From Rufibacter immobilis (GTDB taxonomy: Bacteria > Bacteroidota > Bacteroidia > Cytophagales > Hymenobacteraceae): a DNA stretch of 64,000 bases. The stretch is from the NCBI RefSeq assembly GCF_003721565.1, contig NZ_RJJE01000017.1, positions 496,001-560,000 of the forward strand. The letters are read 5' to 3'. The position numbers were made by a program, and so were the translations under genes. Shown piece by piece: positions 2,876 through 43,963 of this stretch (within the stretch, counting starts at the first letter, position 1; every line of letters starts with the position of its first letter). The notes below the pieces were generated by a model that worked only from the letters and a program-made list of their open reading frames with translations, searched no databases and was not told the origin of the DNA.

Positions 2876-4018
2876 ATGAAAGCAATTTACAACAAGCTGT
2901 TAATGCTTTGCTGCTTATCACTTACGCTTTGGTCTTGTGATAAGGACGAAGACAGGATCATCATGCAGGAGGGGGTGGCGCCTATTCTTTCCTCTACCCA
3001 ATCTAATCTGGTACTGTTAGAGGCAGACAAGGCCAAAGACGCGGTTACGTTCAACTGGCCCAAAGCAGAGTTTGGGTACAACGCTGCGGTAAGTTATACG
3101 CTCCAATTTGACAAAGCGGGCGGTGACTTTACGGCACCAGTAAAAGTGGAAGTAGAAAATGCTCAGTTCAGAACGGTGAAAGTTGGAGAGTTGAATGATA
3201 TTGCCAACTCACTTGAAATGGAAGGTGAAAAGGCCGGGGAGATGCAGGTAAGGGTTATGGCTTCTGTAGGAGCTGCCGCCGCACCAGTGTATTCAGATCC
3301 TATTAGTATCACGGTTACTCCGTATTTGGCAGAGCCTCCTTACGCTACTTTATATCTGGTTGGCGCTGCTACTGAAGGAGACTGGGATAATAACAAAGCT
3401 ACTCCAATGTTCCGTAGTGCAGATGATGCCTTCCTATTCACCTATACCGGATATCTGAAGTCAGCAGACTTTAAGGTTCTGGGCCAGTTGGGCAAATGGG
3501 GACCAGCATGGGGCATGGGTACGGTGAACACTGACAAGAGCGTAAACATCAGGTTCCGTCCAACAGAAGGAGATGCAGATGTTCCCAATTTCTCTGGCTT
3601 GATTCCAGCAGCGGGTTATTATACCATCACCTTAGATATTAGAAAGAATAGCTTGACCGTTGCCCCATATGATGCTACAGGAAAACCATCTTATACGGTC
3701 ATGGGAGTGTTAGGGGAGTTCAACGGCTGGGATGCCACACCAAACAATGACCAGTTGATGACCACTACCTCCGTAAACCCGCATATCTGGAGAACTACGG
3801 TTACCATACCAGCGAAAGCCGATGCAAATGCCAAATCAGAGTTAAAAATTAGAGTAAACAACAGCTGGGGCACCAACTGGGGAGCGAAAGAAGGAAATCA
3901 GGAAAAACTTTATGGCCAAGGCCAGGCAGGTGGACCTAATTTCAAGATAACCCCTGGCAAATATTTGCTGGTATTCAATGACCTAACTCTAGATTACGTC
4001 TTCATTCCTCAGAACTAA
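2876..4018 (+). CDS. SusE-like outer-membrane starch-binding lipoprotein
   Basis: 380 aa from ATG 2876; an upstream TTG at 2831 would lie inside a hairpin and in front of the signal peptide, so it is rejected. The signal ends LTLWSC, giving a lipoprotein. An N-terminal SusE domain (about residues 25-145, fibronectin-like) is followed by two carbohydrate-binding modules of the SusE/SusF type, seen as YLVGAATEGDWDNN near residue 160 and VMGVLGEFNGWDATPNND near 278. It should sit on the cell surface and hold starch near SusCD. The position after susD supports the call; sequence of these lipoproteins is poorly conserved, so exact substrate is inferred. Confidence 0.88.
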   Translation: MKAIYNKLLMLCCLSLTLWSCDKDEDRIIMQEGVAPILSSTQSNLVLLEADKAKDAVTFNWPKAEFGYNAAVSYTLQFDKAGGDFTAPVKVEVENAQFRTVKVGELNDIANSLEMEGEKAGEMQVRVMASVGAAAAPVYSDPISITVTPYLAEPPYATLYLVGAATEGDWDNNKATPMFRSADDAFLFTYTGYLKSADFKVLGQLGKWGPAWGMGTVNTDKSVNIRFRPTEGDADVPNFSGLIPAAGYYTITLDIRKNSLTVAPYDATGKPSYTVMGVLGEFNGWDATPNNDQLMTTTSVNPHIWRTTVTIPAKADANAKSELKIRVNNSWGTNWGAKEGNQEKLYGQGQAGGPNFKITPGKYLLVFNDLTLDYVFIPQN

Positions 4019-4088
4019 TAGAACTGTTTCTTAAGATTCCCTCCTACAAGAGAGTTCATTGAAAGAGGAAGCACGATCATTCATTTAC

Positions 4089-4123
4089 ATAAACCCGGTG
4101 CTTCTGGTGCCGGGTTTATTTTT
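4089..4123 (+). terminator. Rho-independent terminator after susE
   Basis: Inverted repeat ATAAACCCGG (4089-4098) and CCGGGTTTAT (4110-4119) followed by a short T-run. It separates susCDE from the downstream amylase, implying a separate or read-through-dependent transcript for the latter. Confidence 0.75.
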
Positions 4124-4179
4124 AATATCCTCCTTGGCTCCTTAAGGCCAAGTAATTTTCTTCAACAACAGTACAATTC

Positions 4180-5748
4180 ATGAAAAAGCCCAATTCATTC
4201 CGCTCTATCATGGCAGGAGCTCTTCTCCTGTTGTCTGGTGCAACCATCCCCAACGTTCAAGCCCAATCTGTCCAAGCCAGCCAATGGCCCCGGGGAGTTA
4301 CCTATGAGATCTTTGTTCAGTCCTTCGCCGATTCAAACGGGGACGGGATTGGCGATATCAAAGGCATGACCTCCAAGTTGGATTACCTCAAGAACCTGGG
4401 TGTGGAGGCAGTGTGGCTAATGCCTATGAACCCTTCGCCGTCTTACCATAAGTATGACGTTACCGATTACTACGGCATCCACCCAGATTACGGCACTTTG
4501 GAGGACTTTAAAGCATTCATTAAAGAGGCCCATAAGCGGAACATCAAAGTGGTGATGGACATGGTGATCAACCACTCGTCTAGCAAACACCCTTGGTTCC
4601 TGGATGCCGCCAAAAATGAGAACAGCCCTTACCGTGACTACTATGTCTGGACCCACAAGAACGATCCTCAGACCCAAAAAGAGGGCAGACCTACGGGCGC
4701 TGATTCAGACAATACCCAGCATTGGCATAAGTTAGAAGGCAGTGATTGGCTGTATTACGGCTACTTCTACGGCGGCATGCCTGACCTCAACTTTGACAGC
4801 CCTAAGCTGCGCGAGGAGGTCTTCAAGATTGGACGTTTCTGGTTTTCAGAAGTGGGGGTAGACGGTTTCCGGTTAGATGCCGCCCGCCACATTTTCCCCG
4901 ATGAGCGGCCAACGGATAACCACAACTGGTGGGTGTACTTCCGCAATGAGATGAAGAAGGTCAACAAAGACGTTTATCTGGTAGGGGAAGTGTGGGCTCC
5001 CGCCGAAGTGGTGGGCCCGTACCTGAAGGGCTTGCCTGCGCTCTTCAACTTTGACATGGGCTACGCCATCACCAAAGCCGTGAATGAGGAAGAAGCCGGA
5101 GATCTGGTGGCCAACCACAAAAAGATCAGAGACTTCTACCAGAACGTAAACCCTGAGTACGTAGACGCTACCTTCCTCACCAACCATGACCAGAACCGCA
5201 TCATGAGTGCCGTGAACGGTGACGTGAACAAAGCCAAAATGGCCACGGCCCTGCTCTTGACTTTACCTGGTTCGCCGTATCTGTATTACGGGGAGGAAAT
5301 AGGCATGAAAGGTATGAAACCCGATGAGAACATCCGGGAGCCGTTTCTGTGGGATGCCAAAGCCAAAGACAAGAACCGCACCACTTGGATGCAGCCTAAA
5401 TACAACGCCGAGGGCATGGTAAAGCCATTGGCTGCGCAGATGAAGGACAAGAACTCTATGTACCATCACTACAAGACGTTCCTGCAGCTGCGCAACAACA
5501 GCCAGGCCCTAACCTACGGTGAACTGGAGCCACTGAACCTGAATACCAAAGGCCTCTCGGCGTTTGTGCGCGCAAATGAGCAACAGTCGCTGCTGGTGCT
5601 GCACAACTTGTCTAAAGAAACTCTTACGGTGAACCTGCCCCAGAACCTGGCTGGCTATGATGACATTTACTTCAAGAACAAAGGAGCCAAGGTGAGTAAA
5701 AGCGCTGTTTCTATTCCGGGCTACAGCACCGTGATCCTGAAGAAGTAA
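4180..5748 (+). CDS. GH13 alpha-amylase-family enzyme, secreted
   Basis: 522 aa with a type I signal peptide (cleavage near NVQAQ) and no lipobox, so probably periplasmic. The GH13 barrel begins at YEIFVQSFADSNGDGIGD. Catalytic residues are Asp233 in DGFRLDAARH, Glu270 in VGEVW and Asp337 in TNHDQNR; the region I motif is MDMVINHSS. A C-terminal beta domain covers about residues 430-522. It likely hydrolyses maltodextrins brought in by SusCDE. Unlike Bacteroides SusG it lacks a lipid-anchoring Cys and a CBM insertion, so a surface role is less likely. Neighbours are susE upstream and the GH97 gene downstream. Confidence 0.93.
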   Translation: MKKPNSFRSIMAGALLLLSGATIPNVQAQSVQASQWPRGVTYEIFVQSFADSNGDGIGDIKGMTSKLDYLKNLGVEAVWLMPMNPSPSYHKYDVTDYYGIHPDYGTLEDFKAFIKEAHKRNIKVVMDMVINHSSSKHPWFLDAAKNENSPYRDYYVWTHKNDPQTQKEGRPTGADSDNTQHWHKLEGSDWLYYGYFYGGMPDLNFDSPKLREEVFKIGRFWFSEVGVDGFRLDAARHIFPDERPTDNHNWWVYFRNEMKKVNKDVYLVGEVWAPAEVVGPYLKGLPALFNFDMGYAITKAVNEEEAGDLVANHKKIRDFYQNVNPEYVDATFLTNHDQNRIMSAVNGDVNKAKMATALLLTLPGSPYLYYGEEIGMKGMKPDENIREPFLWDAKAKDKNRTTWMQPKYNAEGMVKPLAAQMKDKNSMYHHYKTFLQLRNNSQALTYGELEPLNLNTKGLSAFVRANEQQSLLVLHNLSKETLTVNLPQNLAGYDDIYFKNKGAKVSKSAVSIPGYSTVILKK

Positions 5749-37294: not shown

Positions 37295-37555
37295 CTAATA
37301 TCTGATACCCGGATGACCGGTTAATGAATCAAATTCAAAAGTTCCCAGAAAAAAACCGTCCACAACGATTCCTTCTGAAGACGAACCGGCCTTGAACTCC
37401 AGGTTATTACTCAAAGTGATAGTGGAATTGCCTTTCAAGTGACCGAAGAGCAGTTTTGAGGTTTGTCCGCCCGGTTTTTTAGGTACAGAGATGCTAACAT
37501 GCGTGTAAGCTCGCTCGTTGATGGCACCTTTTAATGTATAACCTTTAGCTTCCAT
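37295..37555 (-). CDS. Small orphan protein (86 aa) at the end of the Opp-like cluster
   Basis: 86 aa, no signal or membrane segment. Predicted beta-rich with alternating pattern (THVSISVPKK, KLLFGHLKGNSTITLSNN, GIVVDGFFLGTFEFD). I recognise no family. A terminator follows and a 189-bp very AT-rich leader precedes it. That leader has a 20-bp motif shared with the region upstream of the 66-aa peptide gene, so the two are probably co-regulated. Could be an immunity, chaperone or effector partner; this is a guess. Confidence 0.7.
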   Translation of the reverse strand: MEAKGYTLKGAINERAYTHVSISVPKKPGGQTSKLLFGHLKGNSTITLSNNLEFKAGSSSEGIVVDGFFLGTFEFDSLTGHPGIRY

Positions 37556-37654
37556 TTCTCTTTTTGCTCTTTAATATGATACAATATTAAAGCCTTCCAT
37601 GATTAAGATATAGGAAACGATAAGGTAGTTGGTAACTTTAATTTATAGTATATT

Positions 37655-37674
37655 TAATTGTGTTATTTATATAA
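37655..37674. promoter_or_regulatory. Shared motif, copy 1, upstream of the 86-aa gene
   Basis: TAATTGTGTTATTTATATAA, identical except one base to 42344-42363; 100-119 bases upstream of the 86-aa start. AT-rich surroundings make chance similarity possible, but the TTGTGTTATTT block is distinctive. Confidence 0.5.
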
Positions 37675-37744
37675 AATATTAAGCTTAGATGTGATGTAAA
37701 TAAAAATACAAGGGGCGTTTATTAAAGGATAGATAGAAAATGGT

Positions 37745-38791
37745 TTATCTATAACGTTTTCTGTCTAGAGGCTTTTGAAATTGTTGCCCAATTGTCTGCA
37801 AGCTCAAGATACTAACAAGGAGTAAAGCCGCAGGAAAGGCAATAAGCCACCAGGCTTCCACAGAAAACCGGGCATTCGCCAGCATTTTTCCCCAAGAAGG
37901 AATATCTGCCGGAACGCCAATTCCCACATAGGCAAGGGTGGATCCAATTCCTAATAAACCAGAGGCCGCAAAGCAGAAATTGGTAAGAATAGGACCTTGC
38001 AATGCGGGCCAGATAAAATTCAAGAATTTAGTTTGGAAAGGAATACCTAGTGCTTTAGCAGTTTCATAGTAAGGCTCTTGTTTTATCTGCAGCACTGTTG
38101 TACGGGCTACCCTGGCAGGAAGGACCCAATACCCAAGACAGATCCACCCCATTAGGCTATAGAGTGAGAATGTACCAAAAGCACTTAGAAGAAGCAGGAG
38201 AAGTAACTTAGGCAAAGCAGACCAAATGTTGATGCTTTTTTCCAGAACTTCATCTACCGGAATAGTAATGTGTTTGCTCACTTTAGACGATGAGCCTCGG
38301 AATATTAAAAGGTAAAGCAGCAGCCCCATGCAGGTTAACCAATAGGCTGTTCTGGCCAGCGGGATGTAACGGATGGGAACTAAGCCATCTAAAACTGGAG
38401 AGAGGTAAAGAAAGACAAGCAGGAGAAAAAGACTGACATAAAAGTTTACTCTGTTTATTCTCATGCCTGTATTACCTAAAATTGCCGCTCCGGTCCCCCC
38501 TGCAACTCCAAGAATGGTAGTAAGCACAAGCGGCGGAAAAGACAAAAGCCAAGCGGTACGGCAACTCAAAAATAAATAGAGTAAAACATCACGGCCCAAT
38601 TGATCTGTTCCTAATAGATGAGCTGGGTTGGTAAATGGAGGTAGATAAGCCAGTTCTGGAGTTGCCTCCATCTCTCTTCCCTGCAGTATTGCCCAGTGGG
38701 CAAAAATGGCCGCCATCGTAAACAGCAATAGCCAGAGCAGGCTAATTTTTCCTGCTAATGTGAAGGATTTGAATAACACCTTTTTCCCCAT
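37745..38791 (-). CDS. Opp/Dpp-like ABC permease (OppC type)
   Basis: 348 aa from ATG 38791, 7 bases past the previous stop; a longer start at 38839 would overlap oppB. About six to seven hydrophobic helices. OppC hallmark near residue 65, PAHLLGTDQLGRD, and the cytoplasmic EAA loop ETAKALGIPFQTKFLNFIWPA that contacts an ATPase. It would form the inner-membrane channel for peptides or similar solutes with the next permease. No ATPase gene lies nearby. AT-rich like the rest of the cluster. Confidence 0.88.
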   Translation of the reverse strand: MGKKVLFKSFTLAGKISLLWLLLFTMAAIFAHWAILQGREMEATPELAYLPPFTNPAHLLGTDQLGRDVLLYLFLSCRTAWLLSFPPLVLTTILGVAGGTGAAILGNTGMRINRVNFYVSLFLLLVFLYLSPVLDGLVPIRYIPLARTAYWLTCMGLLLYLLIFRGSSSKVSKHITIPVDEVLEKSINIWSALPKLLLLLLLSAFGTFSLYSLMGWICLGYWVLPARVARTTVLQIKQEPYYETAKALGIPFQTKFLNFIWPALQGPILTNFCFAASGLLGIGSTLAYVGIGVPADIPSWGKMLANARFSVEAWWLIAFPAALLLVSILSLQTIGQQFQKPLDRKRYR

Positions 38792-38798
38792 AGAACCG

Positions 38799-40163
38799 CT
38801 ATCCGTTTCTGAGGCGAGGATCAAGTAGAACAAAGGCAAAATGGGTCAAACTTACCACCACTTGCCTGAAGATTAACAAGAGAAGCGTTATCCCAACAAT
38901 CACCGGATAGTCGGCGGTCAAAATAGATTGCGCAAGCAAATTTCCTAAGCCTGGTAAAGAGAAGGTAATTTCTATAACCAAAGCACCTGCCATAATACCA
39001 ATGGTAACTTCGCTTAAAAGTGTAAGGGAAGGTAGCAAGGCATTGGGCATGATATGTTTTTTTAGCGTTTCTTTTTGGGAAAGCCCTTTTGCCCGTGCCG
39101 TGCGGTAGTATAGTTGCCCCAATTGCTCTTCTAAACTTCTATGAAGCTGCAGTGTAAGGTGGGGTGTCACCAGTAATGCGATACAGACACTTCCTAAGAC
39201 CACTGAAGGATTGGAAAGCAACGATGCGGTATGAGCGATAAAAGAACCTTCCTGCGGAAAGATAGGCAGCATAGAACCGCCAGCCACCACATAAATGGTT
39301 AGTACTAGTAGGGCAATGAGGAAGGCCGGAATACTATCCAGAAGATAAAGTACCTTCAGGGCTAAGCGGGTGGCTATTCCTCTGCTGTGGTGCGCGAAAT
39401 AGAAGCCAACAAAATAAGCGACGGCAGTTGCCATAATGAGACCAAGCAATCCAATGATTACTGTTGTTCCAATTGCATGGGAAATTCTGGCTGAAACCTG
39501 CTGATAATCCTGGGTGGAAGTGCCTAAATTGCCCTGTAAGAGGTTCATCAACCAGTGGTGATATGCATTATTCGTTCCTTGCCACTGTACTGCCGGTAGA
39601 TGATAGTATAAGGGGGCGCGTTGATTTTGTAGGTTCTGCCAGTGTGAGAGCAGTTGAGCAGATTCTAAACTAGGTTGAGCTTTCAGCAGTTTGGTTATTT
39701 CCTGATAAGGAGCAGCTCTTGCAATAGGAGCGTTATCATTAGTCCATAGGAGCAAATGATGGGTAAGGGTGCTGTGAACAGTATCGGGGACTAATTTCTT
39801 CCAATCATTCCAGACCCCATAGAATTTGGCAACTTGATTGAACCCATGCCTTAGCACTGCTTTTTCTACCCAAACCTTGTCAAGTTCATCAGGTTTCAGC
39901 TGTGCAGCCAGTACCTTTCCTTTGAGGGAAATATCTATGTAAAATAGAGGATCAAGTAAGCCGTTTCTCTTTAAATAATCACTTTTTACTTTTGCCAGTG
40001 TAGCCGCATTGGCGGCTCCATAAATGACGGTATCTGCCTCTTGCATGCCTTTAGGGGCATTGATAGCCGGCAATAGGCGGCTCAAAAGAAATACACACGA
40101 TACGGTGAGCCAAAGTGTGAAAAGGAACTTCAGCAGTGAAAGAGATACGCTTCTGAAATTCAT
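38799..40163 (-). CDS. Opp/Dpp-like ABC permease (OppB type) with large periplasmic insertion
   Basis: 454 aa, about 120 longer than usual OppB. Helix 1 spans about residues 10-32. An unusual extracytoplasmic domain runs to about residue 200, then the normal motif HWLMNLLQGNLGTS, further helices, and the EAA loop RTARAKGLSQKETLKKHIMPNALLP. The extra domain may dock the lipid-anchored binding protein. It lies 8 bases after the binding-protein gene. Confidence 0.88.
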   Translation of the reverse strand: MNFRSVSLSLLKFLFTLWLTVSCVFLLSRLLPAINAPKGMQEADTVIYGAANAATLAKVKSDYLKRNGLLDPLFYIDISLKGKVLAAQLKPDELDKVWVEKAVLRHGFNQVAKFYGVWNDWKKLVPDTVHSTLTHHLLLWTNDNAPIARAAPYQEITKLLKAQPSLESAQLLSHWQNLQNQRAPLYYHLPAVQWQGTNNAYHHWLMNLLQGNLGTSTQDYQQVSARISHAIGTTVIIGLLGLIMATAVAYFVGFYFAHHSRGIATRLALKVLYLLDSIPAFLIALLVLTIYVVAGGSMLPIFPQEGSFIAHTASLLSNPSVVLGSVCIALLVTPHLTLQLHRSLEEQLGQLYYRTARAKGLSQKETLKKHIMPNALLPSLTLLSEVTIGIMAGALVIEITFSLPGLGNLLAQSILTADYPVIVGITLLLLIFRQVVVSLTHFAFVLLDPRLRNG

Positions 40164-40171
40164 TCAATTCA

Positions 40172-41890
40172 CTATTTTTTTATAAACCTTAAGACATCAT
40201 ACCCTGGCTTCAAGGCTGATACTACCACAGAATCGATCTTTTTACTTACAACAATCTTGCTTTGTTGAAAATAAAGAAAAACCATATTGCTTTCTTCCTG
40301 CATCTTCTGCTGCAGCTCTTTCAATAGAATTGCTTTTTCAGTAGTGCGCTCCTCTTTCGCAATTCGTTCAAGTAAGAGATCGGTCTGTCTATTGCCGAAA
40401 CCCGTTACGTTTGCGCCACCTACTTTAGCATTAGAGGTATGCAGCAAGGGAACCAGATTATAGGAAAACGGATTGCCTACTAAGGTTCTGAAATAGAGAT
40501 CAAAATCACGGCTCAAGAGCTTCTCGTTGATCTGACTACTCTCCATTGCTTGCAATGAGATTGGAATTCCAACTTTGCTGGCATTCTGCTGAAATAGAAG
40601 CGCCATGTTCTCGAAATCTGTGTTGCCTGCCCTATATAATAAGTTAAGTTTTAAAGAGCGGGTTTGACCGTTTATCTTTTTCTCCCATCCAGAGGAGGAT
40701 TTTCTCCAGCCAGATGCAGTTAATAATTGTATAGATTTCTGAGAGTCAAATTTCAGCGGCTGCAATTCTGAATTATAGAATGTCTTTTCCTGCGGATGGA
40801 CAAGCCCTACGGTAGGAGTGGCCAATCCACCGTGCAGGGAGGAAACGACGAGAGGAACGTTGATCAGATGGGCGAGCGCCTGCCGGGTGGCCTTATCCTT
40901 TAGCAGCGGATCTTCACCATTCATTCCCATAAAAATAAGATCATAGGAACTTGGTGTGTAAAAATTGAATAGTTGCCTGTATTTAGGATCTCTCTGCATC
41001 TCCTGAAACGACACTAAGGGAATATTGTCCATTACATCAACCTGCTGGCTTTTTAAGGCCAGTAAGGCAGCAGCGTTGTCGGGAACGACTTGATATACTA
41101 TTTTCTCAGGATTAGCGTGCAGACCAGATTTTTGGGAGGATAGATTCTTAGCCCACCAGTTTTTCTTTTTCTCTAATAGCAAAGCTCTTCCAGAACTCCA
41201 GGAAGTTAGTTTATATGGGCCACTACCTTTCACAAAAGAAGTGTCTCTGGCTATTGCGGCACTGCTTAAGAAAGCTGCAAACTTCTTGAAGTTTTGAGTT
41301 AGGGCTAGAGAATCATGTTTCTGCCGCACCAGACGGTAAGGTATGGAGGAAAGTAAACCTTCAGGATCTAATTGATAGGCCGGTAGAACAAAGAAATCTC
41401 CGGTCATCAATTTCATTTCTGGAGAATATCCAGTGCAGGTAATGGTAAATGTAGTGGGAGAAGCAGTGGAGTACTCTATGTCTTTCATAAAACCATATTG
41501 CGCACGCCAACGCTCATTTTCCAGCAAAGGACTATGCAGCAACTTAAGGGTGAATGCTACATCTGCGGCTGTAATGGGAGAACCATTGTCCCACTTTGCT
41601 TCTGGCCTTATCGTATAGGTATAGAAAGACAATGAATCTTGCACCCGAACGCTTGGCAAGTCAACTGCCAAAAGAGGTTTTATCGTTTTATCTTTGAAGT
41701 CAACAGTTAAGAGACTTTGATGAACCAAGTTGAGCAGTTGTAAGGCAATTGCATTGCCATAACTTAATGGATGTAAAGACTCTGGATCCTGAGGTATTCT
41801 TATTCTAACAGCTGGATCAGAAGCTGGCGTTGAGCAAGAAAAAAACCATAAAAAAAAGAAGCCAAGGCTCTTTGCACAGAAGTTTTTCAT
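40172..41890 (-). CDS. Peptide-type ABC substrate-binding lipoprotein (SBP family 5)
   Basis: 572 aa from ATG 41890, which opens the signal peptide; lipobox FFSC at Cys19. Family 5 features: IRIPQDPESLHPLSYG, YTYTIRPEAKWDNGSPITAADVAFTLK and GSGPYKLTSW. Binds oligopeptides, nickel chelates or glycosides in the family; peptide is likely here. First gene of the SBP-oppB-oppC operon. An inverted repeat overlaps its start codon (41889-41928). Confidence 0.9.
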   Translation of the reverse strand: MKNFCAKSLGFFFLWFFSCSTPASDPAVRIRIPQDPESLHPLSYGNAIALQLLNLVHQSLLTVDFKDKTIKPLLAVDLPSVRVQDSLSFYTYTIRPEAKWDNGSPITAADVAFTLKLLHSPLLENERWRAQYGFMKDIEYSTASPTTFTITCTGYSPEMKLMTGDFFVLPAYQLDPEGLLSSIPYRLVRQKHDSLALTQNFKKFAAFLSSAAIARDTSFVKGSGPYKLTSWSSGRALLLEKKKNWWAKNLSSQKSGLHANPEKIVYQVVPDNAAALLALKSQQVDVMDNIPLVSFQEMQRDPKYRQLFNFYTPSSYDLIFMGMNGEDPLLKDKATRQALAHLINVPLVVSSLHGGLATPTVGLVHPQEKTFYNSELQPLKFDSQKSIQLLTASGWRKSSSGWEKKINGQTRSLKLNLLYRAGNTDFENMALLFQQNASKVGIPISLQAMESSQINEKLLSRDFDLYFRTLVGNPFSYNLVPLLHTSNAKVGGANVTGFGNRQTDLLLERIAKEERTTEKAILLKELQQKMQEESNMVFLYFQQSKIVVSKKIDSVVVSALKPGYDVLRFIKK

Positions 41891-41928
41891 ATTGAGCAAG
41901 ACAAGTAGGGGCATACCCTGCTCAATAT
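41889..41928 (-). promoter_or_regulatory. Inverted repeat overlapping the binding-protein start codon
   Basis: ATATTGAGCA (41889-41898) and TGCTCAATAT (41919-41928), 10 bp each, perfect. In the mRNA the start AUG sits at the foot of the hairpin, so it could be a translational switch or a repressor site. Confidence 0.55.
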
Positions 41929-42020
41929 TACGAAACTTGACACAATTAGCCTTGGCCCTTGATGCAGTAACTTAAAGGAATATTATCTTCCCTTAATTGC
42001 TGATATAGTATTTTTATTAA

Positions 42021-42221
42021 TTAGTCTCTTGTTTCCCAAGTGCCTGAACCACCATAGCCAAGATCAGTGTTATTGTCACCACCTTCATTTGACTGTGAAG
42101 TAGAGGTTGTTTGAACAGATGTAGCGCTACTGGCTGAAGTTGCATTTACATCTTTTTTATCTGTAGAAATACCTGTAGCAACTAAAAGTTGAAGAAGGAG
42201 GGAGAGAAGTAATTCTGCCAT
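42021..42221 (-). CDS. Small peptide with hydrophobic N-terminus and Ser/Thr/Gly-rich tail
   Basis: 66 aa. Residues 1-18 (MAELLLSLLLQLLVATGI) form a hydrophobic leucine-rich helix with no positive charge; residues 19-46 are rich in Ser, Thr and Asn; the C-terminus is GYGGSGTWETRD. It looks like a precursor peptide with leader, linker and a distinct tail. It lies 130 bp upstream of the binding-protein gene on the same strand and is divergent from the helical-repeat gene. No maturation enzyme is adjacent. I recognise no family. Confidence 0.7.
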   Translation of the reverse strand: MAELLLSLLLQLLVATGISTDKKDVNATSASSATSVQTTSTSQSNEGGDNNTDLGYGGSGTWETRD

Positions 42222-42499
42222 GGCTTTTATTAGATTTAAGTTTATATGACAAATTTCCTACAATTAGCCATCTGCGGAAAGGAAACATTTAGTTATATTG
42301 TAACTATGAATATTTAAAGGATTTATTATATTTTTATAATATATAATTGTGTTATTTTTATAATATGGTTTAAATTTAAATATTTTTGAGAGCTATTTTT
42401 TATAAGCGTAACGATTCTATAGATCTTTGCATGAGTATTGTTTAGGGATTAAATAAAGTTAATAGTAAATCTAAATATTTACAGCAGTATGTGTGCTTT
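42222..42499. promoter_or_regulatory. Very AT-rich divergent control region
   Basis: About 280 bp between the 66-aa peptide and the helical-repeat gene, dominated by A/T runs, with two TATTTTTATAATAT-like repeats near 42329 and 42353. It probably carries both promoters; no clear TAnnTTTG box was found. Confidence 0.55.
42344..42363. promoter_or_regulatory. Shared motif, copy 2, in the divergent region
   Basis: TAATTGTGTTATTTTTATAA; 19 of 20 bases match 37655-37674, in the same orientation and at similar distance (123-142 bases) from the minus-strand small gene. Confidence 0.5.
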
Positions 42500-43963
42500 A
42501 TGGAAGAATTGAGAAAATTAATACAAATTGTTGAAAAAAGAGCTGGTAAGCCAAATCATATATTTATATACAAGTCTAAAGAAGAACGTCTGTATGATGA
42601 AATTGTTAACGGAAAAATTACCGATGACCATACAGGATATTCAATTTTATATAAGAGTGGACAAGACGGCAAGGGTTTAAAAATGATTAAGTCACGTCTG
42701 AGAAAGAAGCTGATGAATCAGCTTTTTTTCTTAGACGAAGATAATGATGATATAGGTGCAGCGATAGAGCAATCTTGTTTAACTAAATATTACCAGGCGA
42801 AGGTTTTGGTAGATTCAGGAGCTAATGATCTTGCTGCTCCAATATTACATCAAGTAATAAAAAAAGCTAAAGAATTTGATTTCAATTACATTGTATCACT
42901 TTGTACAAGGACCTTGCTGCAAGTCTACATGAACTTAAACGAAAGAAGCAAGTTTTATAAAGTAAAAGAACAATTAGAGAAGATTGCCCCCCGTTTAGAA
43001 GCTGATCAAGAGTCAGAGATTCTATTTATGGAGGCTAAGGTTGAGCTAAGTTATTCTGTTTCCGCCAGAAAAAATTACTTAACAAAAGTAAAGCCAGTGA
43101 TTGAGAGGCTATTGACTATCTGGACGGAAGCTCGTACGTTCAAGGCCTTTAATAATTACTACAGATTGTCTGTCTGGTTACATGAATTGCAGGGTAATTT
43201 TGAAGACATCATCACGCTAACAAATCAATTCAATGAGCTTACAGCCGATAATGATGCCTTCGCCAAGCGGTTTGACATTAAGTTCAATCAATTTATTCAG
43301 GTATATGCTTACCTAAGATGTAAAAGACTGGAGGAGGGGTTAGCGCTTGCGAATACTTACTACTCCTCATTTGATCAGAGCAGTAACAACTGGTTCGCGT
43401 ACATGGAGAATTATATTCTTCTAGCCATACATGCTAAAAAATATGATGTGGCTCATTTACTGTTGCACCAAGTACAGACGAATCCTTTCATTAAAAAAAT
43501 AAACAAACTGGCACAGGAGAGATGGGTGATTTTTGAGGCCTATCTGCACTTTGTAGCTCCTCAATCTGAACAACCTACTAAATGGATTACTTTGCTTCAA
43601 AATGCCCAAAATTACAGTAAAGACAAAGAGGGCTTCAATGTGGCCATCTTGATCTTGCAGGTGATGTATTATTTGGAAATAGTGGATTTTGAAGCTTTGG
43701 AATATAGAGTGGAGTCTTTGAAGAAATATGCGCAAAACCACTTTAAAGACAGCTTTAGCGAACGGAGTAGGACGTTCTTCAAATTACTGGCTGTATTGGT
43801 TCGTTCAAACTTTGATCCACTGGTGACTCAGAAGAAAGGGCAATACCTCTACACCAAACTGCAGCGTACCCCAACTCCCGGTGACGCCTATGCCGAAATA
43901 GAGATTATTCCGTACGAGCATCTATGGGAGCTTATTCTGGAACGCTTGAAAAGGGTCAACTAA
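42500..43963 (+). CDS. Helical-repeat (TPR-like) protein of unknown function
   Basis: 487 aa from ATG 42500 (a GTG three codons earlier is possible). No signal or membrane segment, so cytoplasmic. Residues 1-80 form a small basic domain (EERLYDEIVNGKITDDHTGYSILY, then KMIKSRLRKKLMNQLFFLD). The rest is a long array of paired amphipathic helices with TPR/SEL-like look (AKVLVDSGANDLAAPILHQV, ILLAIHAKKYDVAHLLLHQV). The basic N-domain could bind nucleic acid. I recall similar proteins as lineage-specific paralogues in Cytophagales, but cannot confirm this. Divergent from the peptide gene. Confidence 0.8.
   Translation: MEELRKLIQIVEKRAGKPNHIFIYKSKEERLYDEIVNGKITDDHTGYSILYKSGQDGKGLKMIKSRLRKKLMNQLFFLDEDNDDIGAAIEQSCLTKYYQAKVLVDSGANDLAAPILHQVIKKAKEFDFNYIVSLCTRTLLQVYMNLNERSKFYKVKEQLEKIAPRLEADQESEILFMEAKVELSYSVSARKNYLTKVKPVIERLLTIWTEARTFKAFNNYYRLSVWLHELQGNFEDIITLTNQFNELTADNDAFAKRFDIKFNQFIQVYAYLRCKRLEEGLALANTYYSSFDQSSNNWFAYMENYILLAIHAKKYDVAHLLLHQVQTNPFIKKINKLAQERWVIFEAYLHFVAPQSEQPTKWITLLQNAQNYSKDKEGFNVAILILQVMYYLEIVDFEALEYRVESLKKYAQNHFKDSFSERSRTFFKLLAVLVRSNFDPLVTQKKGQYLYTKLQRTPTPGDAYAEIEIIPYEHLWELILERLKRVN

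Follow-up and report, generated by a model that had tools for sequence, protein, structure and literature searches.

Genes of the locus

The window analysed here is a stretch of 64,000 nucleotides from Rufibacter immobilis (phylum Bacteroidota, family Hymenobacteraceae; contig NZ_RJJE01000017.1, positions 496,001 to 560,000). It contains a block encoding a 66-amino-acid (aa) protein, parts of an Opp-like peptide importer and, in divergent orientation, a 487-aa helical protein. These genes were studied as a candidate peptide signalling module, in which the small protein would be the precursor of a pheromone and the 487-aa protein, called the receptor below, its putative intracellular partner. 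The main features, with positions in the window, are the following.

37745-38839, minus strand: OppC-like permease (Pfam BPD_transp_1)
38799-40163, minus strand: OppB-like permease, 454 aa (Pfam BPD_transp_1); a long stretch precedes the permease domain (residues 250-452)
40172-41914, minus strand: substrate-binding lipoprotein of the peptide type (SBP_bac_5, Pfam E 5.8e-58); probable start at 41890
42021-42221, minus strand: candidate pheromone precursor, 66 aa; hydrophobic N-terminus MAELLLSLLLQLLVATG, Ser/Thr linker, tail GYGGSGTWETRD
42024-42059, minus strand: tail codons of the 66-aa precursor
42500-43963, plus strand: candidate intracellular receptor, 487 aa; basic N-terminal domain (N-domain, residues 1-81) followed by a superhelix resembling tetratricopeptide repeats (TPR)

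The original prediction, made from the sequence of the window, had described this gene content and layout, and every frame named in it was found in its place. The AT-rich character of the block was confirmed (GC content 0.31-0.45, about 0.5 in the flanks), and the binding protein and the two permeases assigned to the Opp type gave the Pfam matches listed above. The receptor and peptide genes are adjacent and divergent, separated by 278 bp.

Translation of the binding protein probably starts at the internal ATG at 41890, judging from its lipoprotein-like signal. This protein is the only SBP_bac_5 match in the genome. The NCBIfam similarities of the importer proteins, to Opp/Nik and related parts, all stayed below the cut-off. 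No ATPase gene is present in the block; a single open reading frame (ORF) of the genome has two oligo_HPY matches, corresponding to an OppDF-type ATPase, and lies on a different contig. A dedicated ATPase had been expected, and this idea was given up: the sole OppDF-type ORF is on the other contig and is retained in the four genomes without the module (see below).

Conservation of the module in the Hymenobacteraceae

The receptor was found in 146 of 150 genomes of the family, and a strong match to the binding protein was found in the same 146. The four genomes lacking the receptor (G107, G115, G133 and G143) belong to one genus. Their binding-protein matches were weak (E 1.2e-6 to 2.3e-8), and so were their OppB matches (3.0e-19 to 3.6e-20, the next weakest genome having 1.0e-32). 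The joint absence may go back to one loss event.

Gene neighbourhoods were compared in 60 stretches drawn from 58 of the 146 receptor-bearing genomes. They represent six genera and extend about 1 kb beyond the receptor and about 2 kb beyond OppC. OppB and OppC accompanied the binding protein in 57 of them, the exceptions being L080, L091 and L094. Genes of TonB-type and FecR-type neighbours were syntenic in six of seven related loci (all six from Rufibacter; the seventh relative was Adhaeribacter), with identities of 73-80% for the TonB-type protein, 54-68% for the FecR-type protein and 53-67% for the receptor. Inheritance of the module in the family is mostly vertical. Apart from the module itself, no ORF family of at least 100 aa was common to more than two of the six genera in these stretches.

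The 66-aa frame was matched in 14 of 15 other genomes of the genus (E up to 8e-4) and was recognized by eye in the remaining one (G048, stretch L048). In the family, a divergent small ORF with a hydrophobic N-terminus, a linker and a G..W tail occupied 139 of 142 gaps between the binding-protein and receptor genes. The frame, whose lack of conservation was named in the original prediction as a ground for refutation, is conserved. The 142 gaps, 59 in a first set (the window and 58 stretches) and 83 from further genomes, represent 141 of the 146 genomes with a receptor. L091, in which the receptor lies beyond the stretch, and the rearranged L094 were dropped from the first set, and five genomes (G073, G081, G091, G099, G144) were not counted, being rearranged, having no listed place for the gene, or carrying receptor and binding protein on separate contigs. 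In the first set the ORF had to be divergent, 40 aa or longer, hydrophobic at its N-terminus and free of K and R among the first 15 residues, and 56 of 59 gaps contained one; L076 and L078 failed through a K at position 11. Such an ORF occurred in 3.4% of first-order resampled gaps, and on the plus strand in 20 of the 59 real gaps. The second set was scored by a looser criterion without a resampling control; 79 of the 83 gaps passed, all 79 with W and G in the later part of the ORF. Because an early K had made them fail, L076, L078, L221 and L252 were added by eye to reach the 139. No such precursor was seen in the gaps of L080, L178 and L233.

Conservation extends to the C-terminal tail. In all 58 tails of the first set a G stands four residues ahead of the W (G at -4, W at 0). 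The form typical of the window's genus is GGSGTWDTRD-like, the window itself having about GGSGTWETRD; other genera show GGTGSWDDNN-like, GGSGTWTNVEK-like or GGTGWGEGQ tails, and a Hymenobacter-like genus has repeats such as GGSGWGND, DHGTGGWTG and GAGGWGGD. Among 16 same-genus sequences the last 11 codons varied mainly at the third base (0.097, 0.127 and 0.438 at codon positions 1, 2 and 3), whereas a stretch of the linker varied at all three positions (0.485, 0.47 and 0.694). The W-centred tail was present in 2-16 copies in 47 of 137 precursors; L221 and L252, which are outside the 137, also have repeats. Most precursors of the relatives are shorter than 100 aa, and many-copy forms reach about 250 aa. 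Between repeat units of the same gene the third-position differences reach 0.51, and this synonymous divergence shows that those copies did not arise by recent DNA slippage. The scarcity of replacement changes between units is partly a matter of construction, since the units were picked by their amino-acid pattern. The correlation between receptor and tail can be explained by vertical descent and was therefore not counted in favour of co-evolution. At L055 (6814-7217) three precursor genes with near-identical tails stand in tandem.

These features bear on the possibility that the block is a nutritional peptide-uptake operon, with the small ORF acting as a regulatory leader peptide and the divergent protein as a regulator sensing dietary peptides. 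The small ORF does lie on the same strand immediately upstream of the binding-protein gene, whose product is the sole SBP_bac_5 protein of the genome. However, a leader peptide has no need of a C-terminal tail that is conserved and repeated up to 16 times, or of three tandem genes as in L055, and peptide-receptor pairs also exist without nearby Opp permeases (L094, L135, L137, L143). A nutritional operon is therefore quite unlikely.

The N-terminus of the precursor is hydrophobic and usually without K or R, so that a classical positive n-region is missing. This atypical start would suit a ligand that stays inside the cell or in its membrane and needs neither export nor re-import to meet the receptor; the Opp operon would then be no more than a regulatory target. 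The distant pairs without local permeases point the same way. Repeated tails separated by spacers, on the other hand, fit proteolytic release, and the receptor is missing together with the binding protein and OppB. We consider such a non-exported ligand very unlikely.

A third alternative is a secreted bioactive peptide, either a ribosomally synthesized and post-translationally modified peptide (RiPP) or a multi-core bacteriocin, for which Opp would serve uptake or immunity and the helical protein regulation. The precursor has the leader, linker and repeated core that this would require, and multi-copy cores are known in some RiPP families too. However, among the ORF families of at least 100 aa in the 60 stretches no candidate for an adjoining tailoring enzyme was shared by more than two of the six genera; an unlinked or shorter enzyme may exist. 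A module present in nearly all genomes of the family also differs from a strain-variable bacteriocin. A RiPP or bacteriocin is unlikely. The idea of a toxin-immunity or toxin-antitoxin locus draws on the small hydrophobic protein adjoining a larger partner. Against it, PADLOC gave no match for the receptor, the binding protein or the 86-aa protein encoded nearby, the module is near-universal and mostly vertical in the family, and the small protein is conserved in its hydrophilic tail as well; a toxin locus is extremely unlikely. Both alternatives had been named in the original prediction and are kept here at a lower rank because conserved partner genes were not found in the 60 stretches.

For the 487-aa protein Pfam gave nothing below E 0.01, and NCBIfam nothing up to E 1. 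AlphaFold2 modelled it as entirely helical, with pairs of TPR-like helices (mean predicted local distance difference test score 82.8, predicted template modelling score 0.71), suggesting a TPR-type superhelix. TPR_12 matched 4 of 37 members of the receptor family (best 3.1e-4) and did not match the window protein. In the VIA-align rows for the model Rap came first, NprR and AimR were among the first, and other TPR proteins were close; PlcR, Rgg and PrgX are outside these rows and are not excluded by the ranking. Foldseek placed MalT domain III and DdvA above NprR. A profile search against PDB sequences yielded only KWOCA_73 (E 0.042), a designed protein. The homologues listed are 474-514 aa long. 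The C-terminal half of the receptor is strongly conserved, and N297, E303, H311, N380, Q387 and K409 are invariant. The N-domain showed weak helix-turn-helix-like matches, and its predicted basic character held up among 60 homologues, the net charge of the first 82 residues averaging +6.1 with -3 as the lowest value.

Extra copies were seen in several genomes. Six genomes of genus g3 picked for this property (L151-L170) have tandem arrays of three or four receptors at the locus. Another TPR-like family, with proteins of about 513 aa, is represented by L171-L173; it is encoded elsewhere in these genomes, matching the N-terminal part of the receptor profile. L094 combines a receptor and binding protein without permeases with a second receptor that has its own peptide, next to a long ORF that is recombinase-like by eye.

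Further features of the block are these.

41920-41939, plus strand: candidate promoter or operator, a 20-bp element GCTCAATATTACnAAACTTG located upstream of the gene for the binding protein
42250-42307, minus strand: promoter-like elements upstream of the peptide gene, from an alignment of 16 same-genus gaps; putative role
near 42250: CAAAnnT, part of the promoter-like elements
42278-42285: AAAGGAAA, part of the promoter-like elements
42301-42307: TAACTAT, part of the promoter-like elements
37295-37555, minus strand: 86-aa orphan, genus-restricted; probably accessory or unrelated

The 20-bp element was exact in 14 of 16 same-genus gaps and had one and two mismatches in the other two; the best matches in other genera had 5 to 9 mismatches. 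A regulon defined by it was sought, but the genome contains a single site within three mismatches, so the element is regarded as local; it was not found in the other genera. The CAAAnnT motif, read on the minus strand, resembles a -7 box of Bacteroidota. The 86-aa orphan, originally listed among the genes of the block, is not a core component: tblastn found the frame in 12 of 15 other same-genus stretches (once partially) and nowhere in the 45 stretches from other genera. It was also set aside as a second signal, being genus-restricted. Its C-terminal stretch (SEG..DG.FLGTFEFDSLTGHPGIRY) is nearly invariant in six Rufibacter sequences and its first half is variable.

Related loci outside the family and on mobile elements

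The receptor profile matched 25 of 395 genomes in a sample of the phylum (21 outside the family, some near the E limit) and 69 of 241 in a sample of the order (40 outside the family). Twenty distant loci and 20 loci of the order were picked by hand from the match lists, leaving out the weakest and most fragmentary. By a strict criterion, a divergent ORF with a hydrophobic N-terminus lay within 1 kb of the receptor at 8 of the 20 distant loci, against 1.13 expected (P 2.5e-5); a second peptide of L135 lies just beyond the 1-kb zone and was not counted. No recognizable OppB or OppC was present at any of these 20 loci, and relatives of the binding protein were found near the receptors of L145 (1426-3333, E 5.9e-67) and L150 (6345-8216, E 1e-70). 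The peptides of L135, L137, L143 and L144 share a tail of the type (I/F)DR.ED (IDRTED, IDRRED, IDRLED, FDRYED), a second tail class. At L105 three different small ORFs around the receptor (920-1444, 3670-3816, 3843-4286) all end in VVVDTLEMN, as if several precursors carried one signal.

At the order loci, which belong to other families, a looser criterion was passed by 7 of 20, where 2.3 would be expected (P 0.009); L276, L280 and L284, three of those that passed, look unrelated. L272, L275, L281 and L283 have different neighbours and no peptide. Opp permeases were present at one locus of the 20; L273 carries a complete module, with a 45-aa peptide ending in GWDDND. The peptide-receptor pair is probably the core of the system and the local Opp genes an addition, present in this family and once outside it.

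A scan of IMG/VR viral contigs with the receptor profile gave two matches, L258 and L259, both of which may be fragments. In each a recombinase gene lies near the receptor (a PHROGs integrase in L258, a similar protein by eye in L259), and a divergent small peptide ends in GGSGTWHEKL (L258) or GGSGEWVER (L259). PHROGs identified DNA methyltransferases on both contigs and an O-like replication protein on one; a portal-like match below the curated cut-off was obtained on one contig and none on the other. A scan of viral sequences with a Hymenobacter-type receptor gave no match. The phages collection yielded no receptor match and the plasmids one, on a plasmid of Hymenobacter sp. BRD128 (L260, NZ_CP053909.1, 56000-82000), where the receptor is directly followed by a tyrosine recombinase, and a binding protein is encoded on its own, apart from them. 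The stretch preceding this receptor showed no such peptide. The tree places the viral receptors outside the family and that of the plasmid within the Hymenobacter-like genus.

Proposed circuit and comparison with known systems

The locus is probably a circuit of cell-cell signalling by a peptide that works like the RRNPP systems, through export, re-import and an intracellular receptor. This view is supported by the linkage and conservation of the genes, their joint absence, the conserved and often multiplied tails and the predicted fold. We infer the following course. The precursor would be inserted or exported via its short hydrophobic N-terminus and then cut; the peptide released from its C-terminus would contain G-x-x-x-W and here read about GGSGTWETRD. 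Many relatives would free several copies from each precursor. The binding lipoprotein would recapture the peptide, which would re-enter through the two permeases; the only OppDF-type ATPase of the genome, encoded away from the locus, would power this import. Once in the cytoplasm, the peptide would bind the TPR superhelix, with the strongly conserved C-terminal half as the most likely site, and change how the basic N-domain acts. This domain probably binds DNA and would control the divergent peptide and opp promoters and perhaps other genes.

Two results limit this interpretation. The receptor had no sequence match to RRNPP or XRE helix-turn-helix models in Pfam and NCBIfam, and many homologues outside the family are without a peptide (8 of 20 distant and 7 of 20 order loci passing), so that not every homologue can be part of a peptide system. 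The original prediction had foreseen rejection if homologues mostly lacked a peptide or Opp genes: this is not the case in the family and is partly the case outside it. Since homologues outside the family are often without peptide or Opp genes, the resemblance to RRNPP stands as a way of working and not as proven membership.

For Bacillota, peptide signals that are genetically encoded and act on an intracellular receptor have been described. In the literature searched no such peptide system was found for Bacteroidota; preprints and most subscription papers fall outside that search. If the proposed circuit is true, a whole family of culturable Gram-negative bacteria has a pheromone system whose precursors form a natural series with 1 to 16 pheromone copies each. 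It would raise the question of how the peptide crosses the outer membrane, and phages or plasmids of the phylum may use such peptides too. The chances are about even that the Bacteroidota receptors, distinct by sequence from RRNPP, represent a phylum-wide form of Gram-negative peptide quorum sensing with multi-copy precursors, linked Opp genes in the Hymenobacteraceae and arbitrium-like use by temperate phages and plasmids.

Generic TPR regulators such as MalT domain III and DdvA have the TPR superhelix in common with the receptor; to our knowledge, no small peptide or Opp genes are associated with them. The RRNPP/RRNPPA systems (Rap-Phr, NprR-NprX, PlcR-PapR, Rgg-SHP, PrgX, AimR-AimP) likewise have a small precursor encoded next to a TPR-type protein of ~490 aa, and the likeness extends to the conserved C-terminal tail, the Opp import genes and the phage-like and plasmid copies. 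The present module differs in that it belongs to a Gram-negative phylum, its receptor has no RRNPP sequence match and an N-domain that is not a recognizable XRE-type helix-turn-helix, its Opp genes are linked to the receptor, and its precursor is without a classical positive n-region. RRNPP systems are recognized by a propeptide of 10-100 aa, export by Sec (in some cases PptAB), a receptor of 250-500 aa, TPRs detected by hidden Markov models and gene adjacency (PMC10075063). Three of these five features were found here: a propeptide of 66 aa, a receptor of 487 aa and direct adjacency of the genes; TPRs detectable by such models are doubtful in the receptor family. According to PMC11343458, known propeptides carry 1 to 4 pheromone copies, against up to 16 tail copies here. 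The tandem-pheromone Phr propeptides of Rap3T and Rap105 (PMC11343458) likewise contain several mature-peptide copies per precursor; the present precursors have more copies and belong to a different sequence class. The arbitrium system of Bacillus phages (AimR-AimP) uses another receptor family, and its likeness to the module is one of gene content: on the phage-like contigs L258 and L259, as in arbitrium, a peptide-receptor pair lies beside a recombinase.

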